The notes below the pieces were generated by a model. That model made no database searches. It saw only the letters and a list, made by a program, of their open reading frames with translations, and was not told the origin of the DNA. DNA of 64,000 nt from Herpetosiphonaceae bacterium (GTDB lineage: Bacteria; Chloroflexota; Chloroflexia; Chloroflexales; Herpetosiphonaceae), in contig JABXJS010000045.1 in the NCBI GenBank assembly GCA_013538855.1, positions 1 to 64,000 of the forward strand, in the 5' to 3' direction. Shown here piece after piece: positions 10,555 to 53,308 of this stretch. The position numbers and the translations under genes were made by a program. The first letter of the stretch is position 1, and each line of letters starts with the position of its first letter.

Positions 10555-11430
10555 ATGACCAAGAATATAGCGATTTCGCTGTTTTTCGCGCTGGCGACCG
10601 TCGCGCTGCTTGGCTATATCTGGTTTGGGCAAACCAACCAGCGGCTTGCAGCGACCAACAACCGCCAGCTCGCTGAACAGATTGAGTTTGGTCAGCGCAA
10701 CTATGAGCAGTACTGCGCCGCCTGTCATAATCTAGACGGCAGCGGTAATGGCCCAGCCTACCCCGCACCTGCGCTGAACCAGCTTCAGGCCACCAAAGGC
10801 CCTGGCACAGAGGCCTACACGACCACCAACGGTATTCAGAAAAAGTACGGCTCGCTGCGCAACTATATTGAGTTCACCATCGCCTATGGCGTGCGCGGCT
10901 CGCCCATGCCCGCCTGGAAGGCCAACGGTATGCGCGACGACCAGGTGCAGGCGATTGCCGCCTATATCATGTCGATGCAGGGTGGCGCTGTCACGCAGGA
11001 CGCCCAGCAGTCCGCCGCCGTCTGGAAAGAGACGGAGGTTGCGAAGCTTCCGCCAACGCCAACGCCAAGCATTCCGAAGCCAGAGGACCCGGTGGCCGCA
11101 GCAGGCTACGATCTGTTCTTCGGCGCTGCCGGCTGCTACGGCTGCCACAATGTTAGCGATAAGCCGCTGGCCGGTCCGGGCCTTGCGGGCCTCTTTGGGC
11201 CAAACGGCACCGCCGCCTATGGCACCACGCTGCCCAACGGCGAGCCAGTGAACGAAGAGAACGTGCATGCCTGGATCGTCAACGGCGGCGGCGGCCCTGA
11301 CGTCGGACCCGAGTCGCAGGACGGCCAGAACTATGGCCCGATGCCCGCTCGCGGCGGCCAGACGGCACAGAGCCTGCCGGATGAGGATATCGATAAAATC
11401 ATTGCGTATCTGAAAACCCTCGAACGCTAA
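10555..11430 (+). CDS. Membrane-anchored di-heme cytochrome c
   Basis: 291 residues. One N-terminal membrane helix (~4-25) is followed by two cytochrome c domains with heme sites CAACH (54-58) and CYGCH (194-198). Likely axial Met ligands are Met118 (SPMPAW) and Met263 (YGPMPA). The domains are joined by a PTPTPS linker. It should take electrons from the Rieske protein, like cytochrome c1, and pass them to an oxidase or a soluble carrier. The ATG was chosen over an upstream GTG because AGAGGA precedes it and the hydrophobic helix then starts at the N-terminus. Third gene of the operon. Confidence 0.93.
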   Translation: MTKNIAISLFFALATVALLGYIWFGQTNQRLAATNNRQLAEQIEFGQRNYEQYCAACHNLDGSGNGPAYPAPALNQLQATKGPGTEAYTTTNGIQKKYGSLRNYIEFTIAYGVRGSPMPAWKANGMRDDQVQAIAAYIMSMQGGAVTQDAQQSAAVWKETEVAKLPPTPTPSIPKPEDPVAAAGYDLFFGAAGCYGCHNVSDKPLAGPGLAGLFGPNGTAAYGTTLPNGEPVNEENVHAWIVNGGGGPDVGPESQDGQNYGPMPARGGQTAQSLPDEDIDKIIAYLKTLER

Positions 11431-11495
11431 CTCACGCTGGCAGGCGGCGATCAGCGATTGCCGCCACGCCACGCTGAATCAAAGGAGCTGTGTCC

Positions 11496-12170
11496 ATGCT
11501 GAAAAAAATGGGCTTTAGTGGCATCGACGTTGCATTATTTGCCGTGTTTGCCATTGTCTACGCGGTGTTCGGGGTGCTCTGGACGCTCAACTTGACTCCG
11601 CTTGGCCCAGCCTCAGAGGCAAACCTGCTTGAGAAAAAAGAGCTGGTTTACTACGGCCTCTGGCTGTGCGCGGTGGCCTATGCGGTGCTGGCAAACTCGT
11701 TTGTCCTGCGCAACAAGTCGCCCAAGGGCGGACTGATCGCCTTTCCGATCACCATCGCCGTTATGGCAGTTGTGTTCTTCGCCCTGACGGCGCTGACTAA
11801 CTGGCTGAAGGACCCAACCACCATCGCGCCTTCAACCAAGATTCTCAGCATCTCCATCGGCGACCTGCTGGTGCTGCTGCCGGTGGTCTCGGCGGTGATC
11901 GTATTCATCATCGCCTGGCTCGGCGCTGGCCTTACCAACCATATGCGCGGCCAGCCAGTCACGCAAGGCTTTATTCGCCTCGGCGTGGCGCTGATGGCCT
12001 TCCCGCTGGTCCAACAGACAGTGCTGTTCTTCTTCCCGCGCTGGGATGACGAGGTGCGCGGCGTCGTGACGGTTGGCGCGATGAGCCTTGGGCTGCTCTG
12101 GGGCCTGTTCCTGGGCGGTGCGATCGGCTCAAACCTGCGCAAGCCGCCGAGCGATCCGGCCAACGCCTAA
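11496..12170 (+). CDS. Polytopic membrane protein of the bc operon, unknown
   Basis: About 224 residues with roughly six hydrophobic helices (~10-32, 52-68, 80-100, 124-146, 164-182, 194-215). No cofactor ligands stand out: there is no conserved His pair or Cys motif. It ends a four-gene unit with the Rieske, cytochrome b and cytochrome c genes and is followed at once by a strong terminator, so a role as an extra subunit or assembly factor of that complex is a reasonable inference. AAAGGAG lies 8 nt before the ATG; an in-frame GTG two codons upstream is too close to it. Confidence 0.75.
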   Translation: MLKKMGFSGIDVALFAVFAIVYAVFGVLWTLNLTPLGPASEANLLEKKELVYYGLWLCAVAYAVLANSFVLRNKSPKGGLIAFPITIAVMAVVFFALTALTNWLKDPTTIAPSTKILSISIGDLLVLLPVVSAVIVFIIAWLGAGLTNHMRGQPVTQGFIRLGVALMAFPLVQQTVLFFFPRWDDEVRGVVTVGAMSLGLLWGLFLGGAIGSNLRKPPSDPANA

Positions 12171-45478: not shown

Positions 45479-46348
45479 CTAATTGCGGCGCGAGTCGGCG
45501 GCGGGCGTCTCGTCGTGGAAGTAGACCGTGCGAATGGGGAAGGGGATCTCGATGCCGTTGGCGTCGAGGGCTTTTTTGATGGCCACGAGCACCGTGTGGC
45601 GCGTCTGCACCAGTTCGCGGCGGGCGGGCGGCGCGATCCACCAGCGCACCAGCAGGTTGACCGACGAGTCGGCGAGCGCGACCATCAGCACCTCGGGCGC
45701 AGGCTCCTGGCAGATCGCGTCGAGGCCAGCGAGCGTGCGCAGGATGACCGCGCGGGCGTGCTCGACATCGTCGCTGTAGCCGATGCCGACCTCGTACTCG
45801 ATGCGGCGCTTATCGAAGGCCGTGTTGACCGTAACGGACTTGGTGAACAGATCGCTGTTGGGGATGACCACGCGGCGATTGTCGTAGGTGCGGATCAGCG
45901 TAGCGCGGGTCTGAATGTCCTCGACGGTGCCCTCGTAGGCATCGACAACGATCTGATCGCCGATCTTGAACGGGTTGGTGAGCAGCAGCAGGATGCCGGC
46001 GAGAAAGTTCTGCAGGATATCGCGGAAGGCGAAGCCGATAGCGACGCCGCCGATGCCCAGCAGCTCGATCAGCCGCCCGAGCGTAAACGAGGGAAACACG
46101 ACCACCAGCGCCACCAGCAGCCCGACAAACACCAGCAGCGAGCGCGACAGCCGCGCGATGACGACCGCCAGGTTCGCGCTCGACGAGCGGCGCCGGATCA
46201 GCCGCTCGATCAGGCGGCTGGCCAGGCCCGACAGCCACCAGAACAGCGCAAAGACCAGCAGGCCGATGACGATGTACGGCAGCTGCGCCAACAGCCCATT
46301 GAGCATGGCTTGAACCGAGCGAATGGCCGCCGAAAAATCAATGCTCAT
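45479..46348 (-). CDS. MscS-family mechanosensitive channel, copy 2
   Basis: 289 residues, about 36 shorter than copy 1, mainly at the C-terminus. Same plan: three helices (~20-115), pore helix GGVAIGFAFRDILQNFLAGILLL (~104-126), beta domain with GTVEDIQTRATLIRTYDNRRVVIPNSDL (~143-170). Its start overlaps the pyrC stop (ATGA), so it is the last gene of the pyrimidine operon and translationally coupled. A link between pyrimidine supply and osmotic control would be new; otherwise it may simply be carried along. Confidence 0.93.
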   Translation of the reverse strand: MSIDFSAAIRSVQAMLNGLLAQLPYIVIGLLVFALFWWLSGLASRLIERLIRRRSSSANLAVVIARLSRSLLVFVGLLVALVVVFPSFTLGRLIELLGIGGVAIGFAFRDILQNFLAGILLLLTNPFKIGDQIVVDAYEGTVEDIQTRATLIRTYDNRRVVIPNSDLFTKSVTVNTAFDKRRIEYEVGIGYSDDVEHARAVILRTLAGLDAICQEPAPEVLMVALADSSVNLLVRWWIAPPARRELVQTRHTVLVAIKKALDANGIEIPFPIRTVYFHDETPAADSRRN

Positions 46349-47766
46349 GCCTCGTCCTCATCGAAGACGCCTGGCAGATGGCCGATGCTGGGCTGCGGCT
46401 GCTGCAGCGAGGTGCCGAAGCCAGCGCGCTGAAAGACGATCTGGCCCTCGGACATCGTGAGCATGACCTGGCCGCGCATCTCCTGGCCCATCAAGGGCGT
46501 GTTCTTGCCCTTCGAGGCCAGGGACTCCGGCGTGACCGTCCAGACCGCATTGGGGTCGTAGATGGTGAGCGTGGCCGGATCGCCGGGGCCGAGCGAGATC
46601 GGCAGCACGTCGATGATCGCGGCGGGGCCGTGGGTCATGCGCGCCACCAGCTCCACCACGTCGATCTGCATGCTGTTGACCAGCGTGAGCAGCATAGGCA
46701 GCGCCAGCTCCAGGCCGGTGAAGCCCGGCGCAGCGTGGTCGAACTCGCACTCCTTATCGACGAGCGTGTGCGGCGCGTGGTCGGTGGCGATGGCGTCGAT
46801 GGTGCCATCGCGCAGGCCAGCGATAAGCGCCTGGACATCCTCGGCGGAGCGCAGCGGCGGGCTAACGCGGGTGCGCGGATCGTAGGGGCGCAGCTGGGCG
46901 GGATCGTAGGGGCCTTTGCCGTCCCACGGCTCCATATTGCCCAGCACCCAGCGGTCGGTCATCACCAGATGGTGCGGCGTGACCTCGGCGGTCACGCGGA
47001 TGCCCATGGCTTTGGCGCGGCGGATCAGCTCGACGCCGCCGGCGGTGCTGAGGTGGCAGATATGCAGGCGGCCGCCGGTCTCAGCGGCGAGGGCGATATC
47101 GCGGGCGATCATGACCTCCTCGCCGGAGGCGGGCCAGCCGGTCAGGCCGAGGCGTGTAGCCACCGGACCGGCGTTCATCACCGCGCCGCGCACGATGCTC
47201 AAGTCCTCGCAGTGGTTCATCACCGGGCGGCCGGTCATCTTGCTGTAGAGCAGCGCCTGGCGCATGATGTGGGCGTCCCAGATCGGCGCGCCGTCGTCGC
47301 TGAAGCCGTGTGCGCCGGCGTCGGACAACTCGGCGAGCGGGGCCAGCACCTTGCCCTCGCGGCCGAGGGTAACAGCGCCGATGGGCAGCACGTGGATCAC
47401 GCCGTGGCGGGCGGCGATATCGTACTGCTGGCGAATCTGCGAGGCCGAGTCGAGGGTGGGGTTGGTGTTGGGCATGGGACAGATCGTAGTGTAGCCGCCG
47501 CGCACCGCAGCGTCCATGCCGGTGGCGATCGTCTCCTTGCCCTCGAAGCCTGGCTCGCGCAGGTGGGTGTGAATATCGATGAAGCCTGGTGTCACAAAGC
47601 AGCCAGTGGCGTCGATGAACTCGGCCTCATCGCCATAGGATGTGGGAGCTGAGGCGAGATCGACGACCTCGCGCACATAGCCGTCCTCGAGCACCAGATC
47701 GCCGACGGTGGCGGTTTTGCGGTCGGGATCGATGATGCAGCCATTTTTAATAATAATCCGCGGCAT
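46345..47766 (-). CDS. pyrC: Dihydroorotase
   Basis: About 473 residues, the class I amidohydrolase type. Metal ligands: GFIDIHTHLREPG (~58-70), the His of VMNHCEDL (~177), LHICHLSTAGGV (~231) and the Asp of AIATDHAPHTL (~310). The Lys usually carboxylated is replaced or not evident, as in many class I forms. It closes carbamoyl-aspartate to dihydroorotate. AAGGAG lies 8 nt before the ATG, 16 nt after the pyrB stop; a longer upstream frame overlaps pyrB and is rejected. Confidence 0.95.
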   Translation of the reverse strand: MPRIIIKNGCIIDPDRKTATVGDLVLEDGYVREVVDLASAPTSYGDEAEFIDATGCFVTPGFIDIHTHLREPGFEGKETIATGMDAAVRGGYTTICPMPNTNPTLDSASQIRQQYDIAARHGVIHVLPIGAVTLGREGKVLAPLAELSDAGAHGFSDDGAPIWDAHIMRQALLYSKMTGRPVMNHCEDLSIVRGAVMNAGPVATRLGLTGWPASGEEVMIARDIALAAETGGRLHICHLSTAGGVELIRRAKAMGIRVTAEVTPHHLVMTDRWVLGNMEPWDGKGPYDPAQLRPYDPRTRVSPPLRSAEDVQALIAGLRDGTIDAIATDHAPHTLVDKECEFDHAAPGFTGLELALPMLLTLVNSMQIDVVELVARMTHGPAAIIDVLPISLGPGDPATLTIYDPNAVWTVTPESLASKGKNTPLMGQEMRGQVMLTMSEGQIVFQRAGFGTSLQQPQPSIGHLPGVFDEDEA

Positions 47767-47782
47767 GAAAACAACTCCTTGG

Positions 47783-48745
47783 CTAGGCGCTAGGCGCTTG
47801 ATCGCGGCTCTCGGCCACCAGGTACAGCAGCGCCATGCGCACGGCGACGCCGTTGGTGACCTGCTGCTCGACCATCGAGTGCGGTCCGGTGGCCACATCG
47901 GGCATAATCTCGATGCCCTCGTTCATGGGGCCGGGGTGCATCACCAGGACCTTGGGCTGGGCGCGGCTGACGCGATCGGCGGTGAGGCCAAAGCGGCGCG
48001 TATACTCGCGCAGCGACGGCAGCAGGCCGCCCTCCATACGCTCGCGCTGCAGGCGCAGGGCCATGAGCACATCCGCGCCCTCGCAGCTCGCGTCGAGATC
48101 GTGGGAGATCGTGACATTGGGCCAGGTGCGCTGCCACTCGCTGGCGGGGCCGATGAGGGTTGGCGGTGCGCAGAGCGTGACATGGGCGCCGAGCGTCGTG
48201 AGCGCCCACAGGTTGGAGCGGGCGACGCGGCTGTGCAGAATATCGCCGACGATCACGATTTTCTTACCGTGCACATCGCCAAGCTGCTCGGTCATCGTAA
48301 AGAGGTCAAGCAGCGCCTGCGACGGATGCGCGTGGCGGCCATCGCCGGCGTTGATCACCGAGCCGCGGAAGTGCTCGGCCACGAGGTAGGGCGCGCCGCT
48401 GCTGGTGTGGCGCAGCACGATATAGTCGGCACCGAGGGCCTGCACCGTGCGCACCGTATCGACGAGCGACTCGCCCTTTTTGACGCTGGTGTCCTTGGAG
48501 CCAACGCTGAGCACATTGGCCGAGAGCGCCTTGGCCGCCAGCTCGAACGAGACGCGGGTGCGCGTGCTCTCCTCCCAAAACATATTCACCACGATTTTAC
48601 CGCGCAGGGTGGGCACCTGTTTGATTGGCCGGGCCAGCACATCTTTCATCTGGGCGGCGGTGGCCAGCACACCGCGCAGCTCAGCGGCGCTCCAGTCGTC
48701 GAGCGCAAGGATATGCCGACGGCGCGGCACAGTCGGTGCATTCAT
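47783..48745 (-). CDS. pyrB: Aspartate carbamoyltransferase catalytic chain
   Basis: 320 residues. The carbamoyl-phosphate motif ESTRTRVSFE (~49-58) and RHTSSGAPYLVAE (~99-111), the aspartate region MALRLQRERM (~217-226) and VMHPGPMNEGIE (~259-270) are all intact. It makes carbamoyl-aspartate, the first dedicated step of pyrimidine synthesis. No pyrI regulatory chain is present, so control is likely through PyrR. AAGGAG lies 6 nt before the ATG; it begins 52 nt after the Clp-fusion gene. Confidence 0.96.
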   Translation of the reverse strand: MNAPTVPRRRHILALDDWSAAELRGVLATAAQMKDVLARPIKQVPTLRGKIVVNMFWEESTRTRVSFELAAKALSANVLSVGSKDTSVKKGESLVDTVRTVQALGADYIVLRHTSSGAPYLVAEHFRGSVINAGDGRHAHPSQALLDLFTMTEQLGDVHGKKIVIVGDILHSRVARSNLWALTTLGAHVTLCAPPTLIGPASEWQRTWPNVTISHDLDASCEGADVLMALRLQRERMEGGLLPSLREYTRRFGLTADRVSRAQPKVLVMHPGPMNEGIEIMPDVATGPHSMVEQQVTNGVAVRMALLYLVAESRDQAPSA

Positions 48746-48797
48746 GTAAAACTCCTTGTGGCTAAAGCACACAGTTGCGCCGCAGCGTGGCGGCGGC

Positions 48798-51794
48798 TCA
48801 ACGGCTATTCAGCTCGCGCAGTGCAGCCTCGATAAAGAGGTCCAGCTTGCCCGCCAGCACATCGCGCGGATTGGGCGTAGACATCGCTGTGCGCGGGTCT
48901 TTGATATACGTGCGCTTTGAAAAGTGATAGGTGCGCACAACCGAACCCCACTCGCCGCCAGCGTCAGCGCGCTCGCGGCCGCCAGCGCCAGCCAAGAGCC
49001 GCGCCTGCAGCAGCAGCAGCGCCAGATCGCGCGCCGCTCGCTCGCTCTGGGCGGTCACGAGTGCGGCCGTGCCGGTGGGCACGTGGATGGCGCGCGCCGA
49101 TCCGCGCAGCCGTCGCAAAAAATGGCCGTTGGCGCGCACAGCGCTGGTCGATGCATCGACCTCGACCAGCGGCAGCTCGGGGGCGTCCTCATCGGGCACG
49201 GGCAGGACGCTCACCTGCACCTGCGTCACCGTCTTGCGGCGTGGCTCGCCGCCCACCTCAGAGATGCGGTGGGTGCCCGCCTCGTGGCGCAGCAGGCCAT
49301 AGAGGCCGGTGCCATTCAGCCGCAGCGTCACGCGCGCCTGCTGGTCCTCGGCGACCGTCTCCTCCAGCACCTCGGCCTCGAAGCGCTTGGAGGCCGCCCA
49401 GCTCAGGTACATGTTGGCCAGCTGGCGCACCCAGCGCAGGCCGTCGCCGGTGCCGCTGGTATGTTCCAAGATGACCAGGGCATCGTGCCAATCCTCGGCA
49501 TCGTGGAAGAACAGCTCTAGCTCGGCGAAGCGCAGATCGCGCTCGAAGCGCCCGAGCGTGCGCACCAGCTCGGGAAACAGCCGCCGCTCGCGGTTCTGCA
49601 CGCGCTGCTCCAGGTGCACAGCCTCGTCGGCCAAGCGCTCCAGATGGTCACAGCGGTCGATGCGATGCGCCACAGCGCTCAGCTCGGCGAGCTTCTCCTG
49701 GGCCTCGGCGGGATCGTCCCAGAAGGCGGGGCCGGACATCTCCTCCAGCAGCGCGGCCTGCTGCTCGCGTGCCTGCGGCACATTCAGGCCCTTGGCCAGC
49801 AGCGCTAGGCGCGCTCTGAGGCTGGCGAGCAGCGCGGTGGCCTCATCGAGCGTCGTTGGAAGATCGGGAGTGGCCGCCGCCTCATCGGGCGAGAGCACCA
49901 CCTCGTCGTCCTCGTTGACCCAGGTAGCCTTGATGTGGTCGCGGGTCGCATAGAGCCGCAGCCAGCCATCGGTGCGCTGTGGCTCGGCCAGCAGGGCGGC
50001 GGCGAGCGGGTAGCTGACCATCTTCTCGATCTGGCGCTTGAGATAGCGCGCGCCATAGCGCACGCTGTAGCCGTGCTTGAGCAGCACATCGAGCACGCCG
50101 TCGTCAAGCTCGACCTGCACATTGCGCCGTGTCAGGCCCTCGCGATCAAACAGCTTGCGCAGCTCGCGGGCGGCGATGCGGCGCATATCGCTCTGCGACA
50201 GCGGCTTGAAGAACGTCACGCCGTCGAGGCGATTGATAAACTCTGGCGAGAAGAACGCCTCGGTCTCGCGCAGCACGCGCCGCTCGACCGCCTCCATGCC
50301 CTCGCGGGCGGTAAAGCCCCACGTCTCGCCCTGGACAATCGACGCGCCAAAATTGCTGGTCATAATAATGATGGTGTTGCGCAGATTGACCTCCTCGCCC
50401 ATCGCGTTGACCAGCAGGCCCTCGTCGAACAGCTGCAGAAAGCGGTTGAAGATCGAGTGGTGGGCCTTCTCAAACTCATCGAGCAGCAGCACAGCGAAGG
50501 GCAGGTTGATCAGCGCCAGCGTGAGCTTGCCGCGGCGCTCGGTGTCGTTATCGCCCCACGACTGGCCGAACAGCTGCATAAAGTCGTGCGGGCCGCTGTA
50601 GTCGGCCATGTTGAAGCGCACAAAGCGATCCTCGCTGCCGAAGAGCGTCGCCGCCAGCGTGCGCGCCAGCTCGGTTTTGCCCACGCCGGTTGGGCCGAGA
50701 TAGAGATAGACGCCCATCGGCCGCGACGGATCGTGCAGGCGGGCCTTGAGCAGCGCGAGCTTCTGCACCATCGCCGCCACCGCTGGCTCCTGGCCCAGCA
50801 CACGCTCGCTGAACGCGCGCCGCAGCGTCGCCTCATCAAAGGGCGCAGCGTCATCGAGCAGCAGCGGCGTCAGGCCAGTGCGATTACGGAAGCACTCCAC
50901 GATATGGCGCGGCTCAAGGCTCGCGGTCGCCTCGCGCTGCGCGGCCATCAGCGCCTCGTCGAGCAGCTCGATGGTCTTGCCAGGAAACGCCTGGTTCAGG
51001 ATAAAGCGCCGCGAGATGTCCAGCACCGTCTGCTGCGTCGCCTGCGGCACGATCACGCCCGAGCGCTCGAAGCGCTGCTCCACCACGTGCTGCACAATCG
51101 ACAGCACCTGATCGGAGCCAAGCGCCGGCAGCGGCAGCGACACAAACAGGCTCGCGAACGAGTCACGGTCGGCGGCCAGCGTCTGCCAGCGATCAGCGCG
51201 CGCCTCGGCGACAACAAACAGCTTGGTATCGGAGAGCACGGACTCCAGCGTGGCCGCGAGATCGTCGTCGTCGTCATCGCCGCGGCGCACGCCAGCGCCG
51301 ACCGCCGTATGCAGATCGCGCAGAAAAATCAGCGCGCGCTGCTGCTCGTTCAGCTGATTGAACAGCGCGCTCACGTTGGCGCGCCAGCCCTCGCCAAACT
51401 GCAGCGAGGCCAGCAGCGCGGAGGGCGAGAACTCATACAGCGCGAGACCTTGCAGCTCCGGCGGGACAGCGCCAAGGCCGATCTCACGAGCGATGGCGCG
51501 TGCCACCGTTGTTTTGCCCGAGCGCGAGCGGCCCAAGATCAGCGGGCGATTGCCAGCGGCCAGCATCTGCAGCGCGGCGCTGACCTCGGACTGGCGCTCA
51601 AACGCCGGCGACAGCTCATCGCGCTCCAGACGGCTGGTCAGATCAATAGCACACCGACTCAACAACTGCGACAGCGATTGATCCATAGTGTCTTGCTCCT
51701 CAAAAGGCGGCGCTGCCCCTCCCTGCTGACGTGCGCGCCGCTGTTGGGCTTGGCGCAGGAAGCGTGAATTGCGGCGATTACGGCGGCGGCTCAC
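48798..51794 (-). CDS. Clp/Hsp100 AAA+ ATPase fused to a GGQ-less release-factor-2-like domain
   Basis: 998 residues in three parts. Residues 1-36 are Arg-rich. Residues ~45-630 form two AAA+ modules without a middle domain. D1 has Walker A GRSRSGKT (88-95) but a damaged Walker B ([15 protein letters not shown], with Arg-Asp for Asp-Glu). D2 is intact: Walker A GPTGVGKT (367-374), Walker [10 protein letters not shown] (435-443), Arg finger in FINRLD (519-524). A TWGF loop (491-494) resembles the VGF loop ClpC uses to contact ClpP. Residues ~645-998 follow RF2: MSGPAFWDD (686-694), the [20 protein letters not shown] helix (781-800), [12 protein letters not shown] (834-845). The SPF decoding loop and the GGQ (site ~885-900, [12 protein letters not shown]) are both lost. 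GTG overlaps pyrR stop; an ATG at 51686 with strong GAGGAG is an alternative start. Confidence 0.88.
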
Positions 51795-52336
51795 GGTGTG
51801 CCTGGCTCTGGCTGCACAATCGAGACAGCATCGACACCGTCGATCGGCTGCACCTGCACGTTAATGCGCTCGTCGGGCGAGGTGGGGATATTCTTGCCGA
51901 CATAGTCAGCGCGGATGGGCAGCTCGCGGTGGCCGCGGTCAACGAGCACAGCCAGCTGAATGGCGCGCGGGCGGCCCCAGTCGGTCAGCTCGTTGAGTGC
52001 GGCGCGGATGGTGCGCCCAGTGTAGAGCACATCATCGACAAGCACGATCAGCCGATCATCGAGCGGCGGCAGGACAGTGCGGCCGAGCGGCGGGGCGGGG
52101 CCGCGCGTCGTCAGATCATCGCGGTAGAGGCCGATATCTAGCTCGCCGACTGGCACCGTAGTTGACTCGGTCTCGGCCAGCAGAGCGGCGAGGCGCTGGG
52201 CGAGAGGCACACCACGGCGGTGAATGCCGATCAGCGTAACATCGGCGACGCCATCATTGCGCTCGACAATCTCGTGGGCGATGCGGGTCAAAATCCGGCG
52301 GATATCGTCGGCGTCCAACAGCTGTTTTGCACTCAT
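51791..52336 (-). CDS. pyrR: PyrR, pyrimidine operon regulator / uracil phosphoribosyltransferase
   Basis: 181 residues, the normal PyrR length. The PRPP-binding motif is [17 protein letters not shown] (~99-115). [16 protein letters not shown] (~35-50) and [16 protein letters not shown] (~64-79) are diagnostic of PyrR. It binds the leader of pyr transcripts when UMP is high and causes termination. A matching PyrR-binding sequence is present in the leader of this operon, two genes upstream. GAGGAG lies before the ATG; its stop overlaps the next gene (GTGA). Confidence 0.96.
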
Positions 52337-53166: not shown

Positions 53167-53179
53167 TGAAACCTCAACG

Positions 53180-53212
53180 AAAAAAACCCCAAGCCTGCCA
53201 AGCGGCCTGAGG
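53180..53212 (-). terminator. Attenuator terminator in the pyr leader
   Basis: On the minus strand CCTCAGGCC and GGCTTGGGG form a 9-bp stem (with G-U pairs) and an 8-nt loop, followed by seven T residues. It lies 14 nt before the first coding start of the operon and about 60 nt after the PyrR site, as in PyrR attenuation. Confidence 0.8.
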
Positions 53213-53274
53213 ATGTCAACACGTTGGCCAGCCTCCATGGCGGCCGATCAGATTCATTGCAGTACCTCCTTTGC

Positions 53275-53287
53275 AGCCTCACGGGAC
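53275..53287 (-). promoter_or_regulatory. PyrR-binding site in the leader RNA
   Basis: On the minus strand GTCCCGTGAGGCT fits the PyrR binding-loop consensus (UCCNGNGAGGYU) and is followed by GCAAAGG, like the known binding hairpin. It sits between the promoter and the attenuator. High UMP should favour PyrR binding and termination. Confidence 0.85.
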
Positions 53288-53308
53288 CACGTTTAAAGGA
53301 TTGCGGCG

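Follow-up and report, generated by a model that had tools for sequence, protein, structure and literature searches.

A Clp-type AAA+ ATPase fused to a release factor 2-like module without GGQ and SPF motifs in Herpetosiphonaceae and other bacteria

The protein described here resembles release factors in one part and Clp ATPases in the other. Release factor 2 (RF2) contacts the L11 stalk of the ribosome through its domain 1, the tryptophan of its switch loop stacks on A1492 in RF2 complexes, and in the ArfA-RF2 complex it occupies the A site without SPF contacts (PMC5378476). For this fold the bacterial section of a 2019 census of release factor families lists only RF1, RF2, ArfB and PrfH, and that section contains no AAA+ fusion (PMC6514570). 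Torsins are Clp-related AAA+ remodellers without aromatic pore loops, and have been proposed not to thread (PMC5425593). We describe a single gene that joins two Clp-type AAA+ modules to an RF2-like region, found in a 64,000-nucleotide stretch of DNA from a Herpetosiphonaceae bacterium (contig JABXJS010000045.1, positions 1 to 64,000; referred to here as the window). Such a fusion is apparently undescribed: no description of it was found in open-licence full texts (subscription journals or database architecture lists may mention it), and no Clp ATPase carrying a ribosome-factor module was found in the literature searched.

The fusion gene is one uninterrupted frame (48798..51794, on the minus strand, as are all of its features given below) which encodes 998 amino acids plus a stop. 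Its GTG start overlaps the stop of pyrR by 4 nucleotides, and is supported by the motif 'RRxxxSRFL' in the basic N-terminal tail (amino acids 1-36, 51687..51794), which is conserved in Herpetosiphonaceae. Codon-position GC remains coding-like at the junction between the AAA and release factor (RF) halves, and codon periodicity is unbroken throughout the gene. The Pfam domains of the protein occur in the order AAA (residues 85-192), AAA_2 (358-524, E 1.5e-39), ClpB_D2-small (532-604, E 1.4e-13) and PCRF (677-845, E 5.8e-20); the Pfam scan gave no match to a Clp_N domain. The original prediction, made from the letters of the window and its open reading frames, was a single frame with two AAA+ modules followed by a full-length RF2 region. 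This is borne out by the PCRF match, by the prfB model, by the E. coli RF2 structure 1GQE and by the fold, and profile and structure matches on the two halves find the Clp families and RF2.

Residues 658-993 align with the full length of the NCBIfam prfB model (E 3e-44), and the C-terminal part matches 1GQE in a phmmer search against PDB chains (E 4e-31). The Pfam RF-1 domain, which carries the GGQ motif, is present as a trace only (E 0.19). An AlphaFold2 model of the C-terminal 372 amino acids, built from an alignment of fusion sequences only, with no true release factor (predicted local distance difference test score 71, predicted template modelling score 0.58), matches RF2 structures in Foldseek; among the matches listed, free E. 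coli RF2 (1GQE) has the highest template modelling score (0.62, E 5e-17). Taken on its own, the RF part of each of the four subtypes described below also matches an RF1/RF2 profile (hhalign probability 100% for type A, 98.8% for B, 99.7% for C and 100% for D). In the window protein this region begins with a helical domain 1, which contains FWDD (49491..49829; Pfam, prfB model, predicted structure and 1GQE match). The alignment shows that domain 2 (49185..49490) has lost the helix-5 tip (GGTEAQDW) and the SPF loop and has kept the core 'E-x-G-x-H-R'. There follow a degenerate remnant of domain 3 without GGQ, modelled with low confidence (48945..49184; model and alignment), and a C-terminal strand and helix with FIEAAL (48801..48944; 1GQE match and alignment). 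The switch-loop tryptophan (WGSVVRTY) sits just before this strand and helix and is retained in type A.

The sequence 'RAN-GH' stands at the aligned GGQ site of the window protein, and its SPF loop is replaced by other residues. At the aligned sites GGQ, the SPF loop and the codon-reading GGTEAQDW tip are gone in every fusion member, and the module is therefore firmly predicted, by motif, to be unable to release peptides or read stop codons via the known residues; that it is dead as a release factor had been foreseen. The core motifs 'ExGxH' and 'VRxY..(V/I)(R/K)D' are retained in nearly all members. GGQ strings do occur in three fusions (L016, L066 and L159) and an SPF string in a fourth (L162), none of which aligns with the functional site; two of the GGQ strings fall in the C-terminal end motif.

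The N-terminal two thirds of the protein match ClpB, ClpC and ClpA by sequence (phmmer against PDB chains) and by fold. Motifs were counted in 36 members of this AAA family, including two paralogues at locus L018 without a proven RF part, and their pattern is all-or-none. In the first module (D1, amino acids ~61-308, 50871..51614; Pfam and motif alignment) Walker A is intact (GRSRSGKT in the window protein) and its lysine is present in 36/36 members. The Walker B 'FIDE' of Clp proteins is 'FLRD' in the window (LIFLRDLH), DE being found in 0/36 members, and the arginine fingers are lost throughout (0/36). The loss of the Walker B glutamate had been predicted correctly, with the correction that both acids are changed and that the arginine fingers have gone too. 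D1 keeps its aromatic pore loop (LQFGEGW in the window), with the aromatic residue in 35/36 members.

The second module (D2, amino acids ~318-529, 50208..50843) and the small or lid domain that follows it (ClpB_D2-small, 49917..50207) were both placed by Pfam and motif alignment. Walker A (GPTGVGKT), Walker B and the arginine finger (EFINRLD) are intact in the window protein, sensor 2 reads YGARYLKR, and all four motifs are present in 36/36 members. As measured against the Hsp100/Clp proteins, the two AAA+ modules and D2-small are present, and the ATPase motifs are not intact in both modules. Motif evidence makes it a firm prediction that D2 is the only module capable of standard ATP hydrolysis. 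The original prediction likewise assigned the work to D2, and had missed a loss within it: at the D2 pore-loop site (50523..50567, motif alignment) other residues stand where Clp has 'GSPPGYVGYGEGGQL', and the GYVG aromatic is found in 0/36 members compared with 6/6 Clp controls in the census and 10/10 in a second comparison. Canonical threading through D2 is unlikely because this pore loop is lost.

TWGF is found at the position of the IGF loop, which mediates ClpP docking in ClpA and ClpC (50313..50324, motif alignment). An IGF-type loop of the form G-[F/L] is present in 36/36 members, as WGF in type A; it is also carried by the ClpC-like paralogues and is missing from the ClpB control of the same genome. 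The loop is predicted to be one that could permit handover to ClpP, as had been proposed for TWGF. A ClpP gene was strongly matched in 18/19 fusion genomes tested, and the remaining genome (G160) has a weak match only.

In the RF tree the 33 fusions fall into one clade (support 100/100), apart from 21 true RF1/RF2 rows, and do not group with RF2. The D2 modules of the fusions also form one clade with respect to Clp proteins (support 100/99). As the fusions form a single clade in both trees a single origin is probable; the data are consistent with one fusion event, short of proof. The RF half is under purifying selection: its ratio of nonsynonymous to synonymous substitution rates (dN/dS) is 0.02-0.05 between Herpetosiphon species and 0.29 for a wider pair (L063/L064), and it evolves faster than D2, yet is constrained. 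True RF1 and RF2 are encoded elsewhere in the window genome, and prfB scores above the curated cut-off in 9/12 fusion-family genomes tested, so the fusion is no replacement for RF2. The three genomes without prfB above the cut-off (G061, G053 and G030) are fragmented assemblies with 84-88% completeness.

The 33 fusions come from about six phyla, Chloroflexota, Planctomycetota, Acidobacteriota, Bacteroidota/Rhodothermota, Pseudomonadota and Eisenbacteria, across which their distribution is patchy. In a collection scan the relatives from Herpetosiphonaceae were full-length (about 63%), and Rhodothermaceae, Saprospiraceae, Woeseiaceae, Luteimonas and Eisenbacteria yielded fusions of about 30%. 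Taxonomic frequencies are rough, with a single scan of genome contigs. Profile searches of whole genomes gave matches in 14/158 genomes of the class Chloroflexia, including 8/9 Herpetosiphonaceae, with three genomes in a further Chloroflexota family; about 34/246 genomes were matched in Planctomycetota, 7/247 in Acidobacteriota, 4/47 in the Eisenbacteria phylum, 4/346 in a Bacteroidota-type sample and 1/321 in a Gammaproteobacteria sample. The Acidobacteriota and additional Chloroflexota matches were scored by profile alone. Plasmid-borne copies were also considered; among the matches listed these were ordinary prfB or unannotated RF-only matches. A known defence system was rejected, as the PADLOC matches to the ATPase are those of AAA modules only.

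Four subtypes can be distinguished. Type A, found in the window, in Herpetosiphonaceae and in two other Chloroflexales, has an N-terminus that is basic or unstructured, and retains RF domains 1-4. Type B, from several phyla, is without domain 3 and in most cases has an N-terminal hydrophobic segment; in L014, L016, L019, L144-L150, L159 and L161 this segment is probably transmembrane. If real, a transmembrane start would put an RF2-like ATPase at the membrane. Type C, from four other Chloroflexales, is also without domain 3, and its N-terminal extension gives a weak HicB-like match. In L067 residues 13-45 (11405-11507, minus strand) weakly match UPF0150/HicB (E 1.6e-4), and similar segments occur in L065, L066 and L068. 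Type D, from Planctomycetota, retains a domain 3 remnant. The presence of domain 3 requires two changes on the AAA tree, which are best read as two deletions: RF domains 1 and 2/4 are always kept, and domain 3 has been lost twice. The N-terminal regions vary (hydrophobic segment, helical, HicB-like or basic tail) while D1-D2-RF is constant, and the RF module is therefore part of the core machine.

Some related loci depart from this layout. A 1517-amino-acid fusion frame in the Bacteroidota-type sample (L162, 8312-12865, minus strand) has a much longer N-terminus with an uncertain start, and its RF part matches release factors through domains 1-2 only (98.4%). In a Planctomycetaceae metagenome-assembled genome three genes of this AAA family lie in tandem (L018, 1595-10345). 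Two of these genes, P1 and P2, were read through and show the lost D2 pore loop and degenerate D1 of the fusions. They belong to the AAA clade and were not counted as fusions, as their C-termini hold only a short 'EEGLHRF' motif with no significant RF match. The products of the tandem genes possibly form a hetero-oligomer, and the genes could represent a branch that predates the fusion or one that has diverged strongly. In an Acidobacteria metagenome-assembled genome (G1120) an AAA-AAA frame of ~785 amino acids (L164) ends right after D2, without an RF part; it is a candidate unfused relative, an ordinary Clp paralogue also being conceivable.

The gene order in the window is glycosyltransferase, pyrR, fusion, pyrB and pyrC. 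The pyrR-like phosphoribosyltransferase (51791..52336, minus strand) lies upstream of the fusion and pyrB, an aspartate carbamoyltransferase (47783..48772, minus strand), downstream, both identified by open reading frame and Pfam; a pyrC-like dihydroorotase follows (46345-47898). The order pyrR-fusion-pyrB is also found in L009 and L010. The pyrimidine operon named in the original prediction is thus the setting in the window and in Herpetosiphonaceae and is no general feature of the family: the fusion recurs in other Chloroflexales, where, as in all other phyla examined, it is not beside pyr genes. A PyrR-binding leader (RF00515) just upstream of the glycosyltransferase-pyrR-fusion-pyrB run (53177-53303, minus strand) is a sub-threshold candidate (E 5e-4, 46.8 bits compared with a gathering score of 54) and suggests PyrR control of the operon in the window genome; the leader was not found in three relatives (L009, L010 and L012). 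Neither an all-against-all BLAST of flanking open reading frames nor Pfam scans of 129 neighbours revealed a neighbour family that recurs outside near relatives, although spurious frames in the G+C-rich loci mean that a partner could be missed.

We tentatively favour a translation-targeted, ClpP-compatible remodeller, in which the RF2-like part is a pseudo-release factor serving as a fixed docking or sensing module on a non-canonical Clp/Hsp100 ring. To judge from the motifs, the protein would assemble into a ring of the Clp type. In this ring D1 would bind but not hydrolyse ATP and present aromatic gripping loops, D2, without its GYVG loop, would hydrolyse ATP, and the conserved IGF-type loop would bring the ring to ClpP. 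The RF2-like module might recruit the ring to translation complexes via domain 1 and the domain 2/4 core. The ring would then act close to the entry of the A site, where it would either remodel a loosely folded client or hand it over to ClpP; the L11/L12 stalk region, a stuck factor and a released peptide are examples of such a client. Translation would not be terminated in the process, and D2 would not thread robustly. Pulling on the nascent chain, as originally predicted, is less likely, because an RF2-type dock should put the ring at the A-site entry, on the L11-stalk side and not at the tunnel exit, and because GYVG is lost from D2 in 36/36 members. A more far-reaching possibility, which we consider rather doubtful, is a new class of translation-targeted Clp machine: by means of a codon-blind, catalytically dead RF2 the ring would dock at the A site or L11 stalk of ribosomes that are stalled, idle or bound to the membrane, and would deliver the client to ClpP.

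Several observations weigh against the favoured remodeller. At positions with at least 85% conservation in true RF1/RF2, type A retains 9/33 polar or charged and 16/30 other residues, and types B and D retain 4/33 polar residues each; types B and C have neither the GGQ domain nor the RF2 switch-loop tryptophan. The RF2 fold on which ribosome docking was originally predicted is real, but few of its conserved polar residues remain. The residues kept in all types (E, H, R and D of 'ExGxH' and 'VRxY..D') may belong to the fold core. As ClpP is found almost universally, its presence says little either way, and the IGF-type loop might serve another contact. The neighbour scans found no recurring translation gene near the fusions. 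The loss of polar residues is not clean evidence against ribosome binding, because much of it lies in domain 3.

It is quite possible that the RF2 fold now serves a Clp-like remodeller simply as a domain for protein-protein contacts or for regulating the oligomer, and that its link to translation is gone. This would suit the loss of the codon, peptidyl transferase centre and many other conserved polar residues, the dispensable domain 3, the lost D2 pore loop, as in torsins (PMC5425593), the hydrophobic and probably membrane-spanning start of many members and the lack of translation neighbours in the scans; it fits less well with the retention across phyla of domains 1 and 2/4, which in RF2 are the parts on the L11-stalk and decoding sides, or with the retention in type A of the tryptophan that stacks on A1492 in RF2 complexes (PMC5378476). 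Chloroplast PrfB3 shows the same SPF and GGQ losses and binds the petB 3' untranslated region (PMC5897788), and the RF2-like module might similarly bind RNA while the AAA+ ring remodels a ribonucleoprotein or protects or exposes RNA. This is unlikely: PrfB3 comes from land plants and has no AAA+ partner, the fusion is not accompanied by an RNA gene or a conserved neighbour, and polar residues are depleted in the RF part. A regulator or stabiliser of the pyrimidine operon acting with PyrR/PyrB in Herpetosiphonaceae is highly improbable: the pyr setting and the leader fail to recur as described above, even if translational coupling to pyrR and then pyrB in the window, L009 and L010, and the sub-threshold leader in the window, speak for it. 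An assembly or annotation artefact or a decaying pseudogene, for which only the motif losses would argue, can practically be dismissed and is already refuted by conservation, since at least 33 independent genomes, cultured strains among them, have the same single frame, and it is no mis-join that ends before the RF2 part in relatives, with dN/dS well below 1 and coding periodicity throughout.

A single fusion under purifying selection, scattered over about six phyla and with all-or-none motif losses, points to a specific machine. Should the RF module have kept its ribosome binding, proteolysis or remodelling would be tied to the ribosomal factor site, and docking combined with delivery to ClpP would, if true, directly link this site to ATP-dependent proteolysis. 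Otherwise the family would plainly show how a translation factor was converted into a subunit of a motor. Because Herpetosiphon species are in culture, the gene is open to tagging or deletion.

The fusion resembles ClpC, ClpA and ClpB in its D1, D2 and D2-small architecture, its D2 ATPase motifs and its fold matches, and resembles ClpA and ClpC in its IGF-type loop. Unlike these proteins it has lost D1 Walker B, the D1 arginine fingers and the D2 GYVG loop, has no Clp_N match, carries a C-terminal RF2-like module and forms a separate clade. With RF2 (prfB) it shares whole-length homology and the fold of domains 1-4, and in type A the switch-loop tryptophan, but it has no GGQ, SPF or helix-5 tip, has an AAA+ ring attached and lies outside the RF1/RF2 clade. 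PrfB3, an RF2 paralogue, likewise lacks both SPF and GGQ and has taken on a role other than termination (PMC5897788), although it is a stand-alone plant protein with an RNA role and no AAA+ modules. Torsins have one AAA module and no arginine finger of their own, whereas the fusion has two modules, with the D2 finger kept in 36/36 members and the D1 aromatic in 35/36. PrfH and ArfB/YaeJ are, like the fusion, bacterial factors derived from RFs and distinct from RF1/RF2 (PMC6514570). The catalytic glutamine is retained in both, PrfH being without domain 1 and ArfB consisting of the GGQ domain and a tail, which is the reverse of the fusion family.
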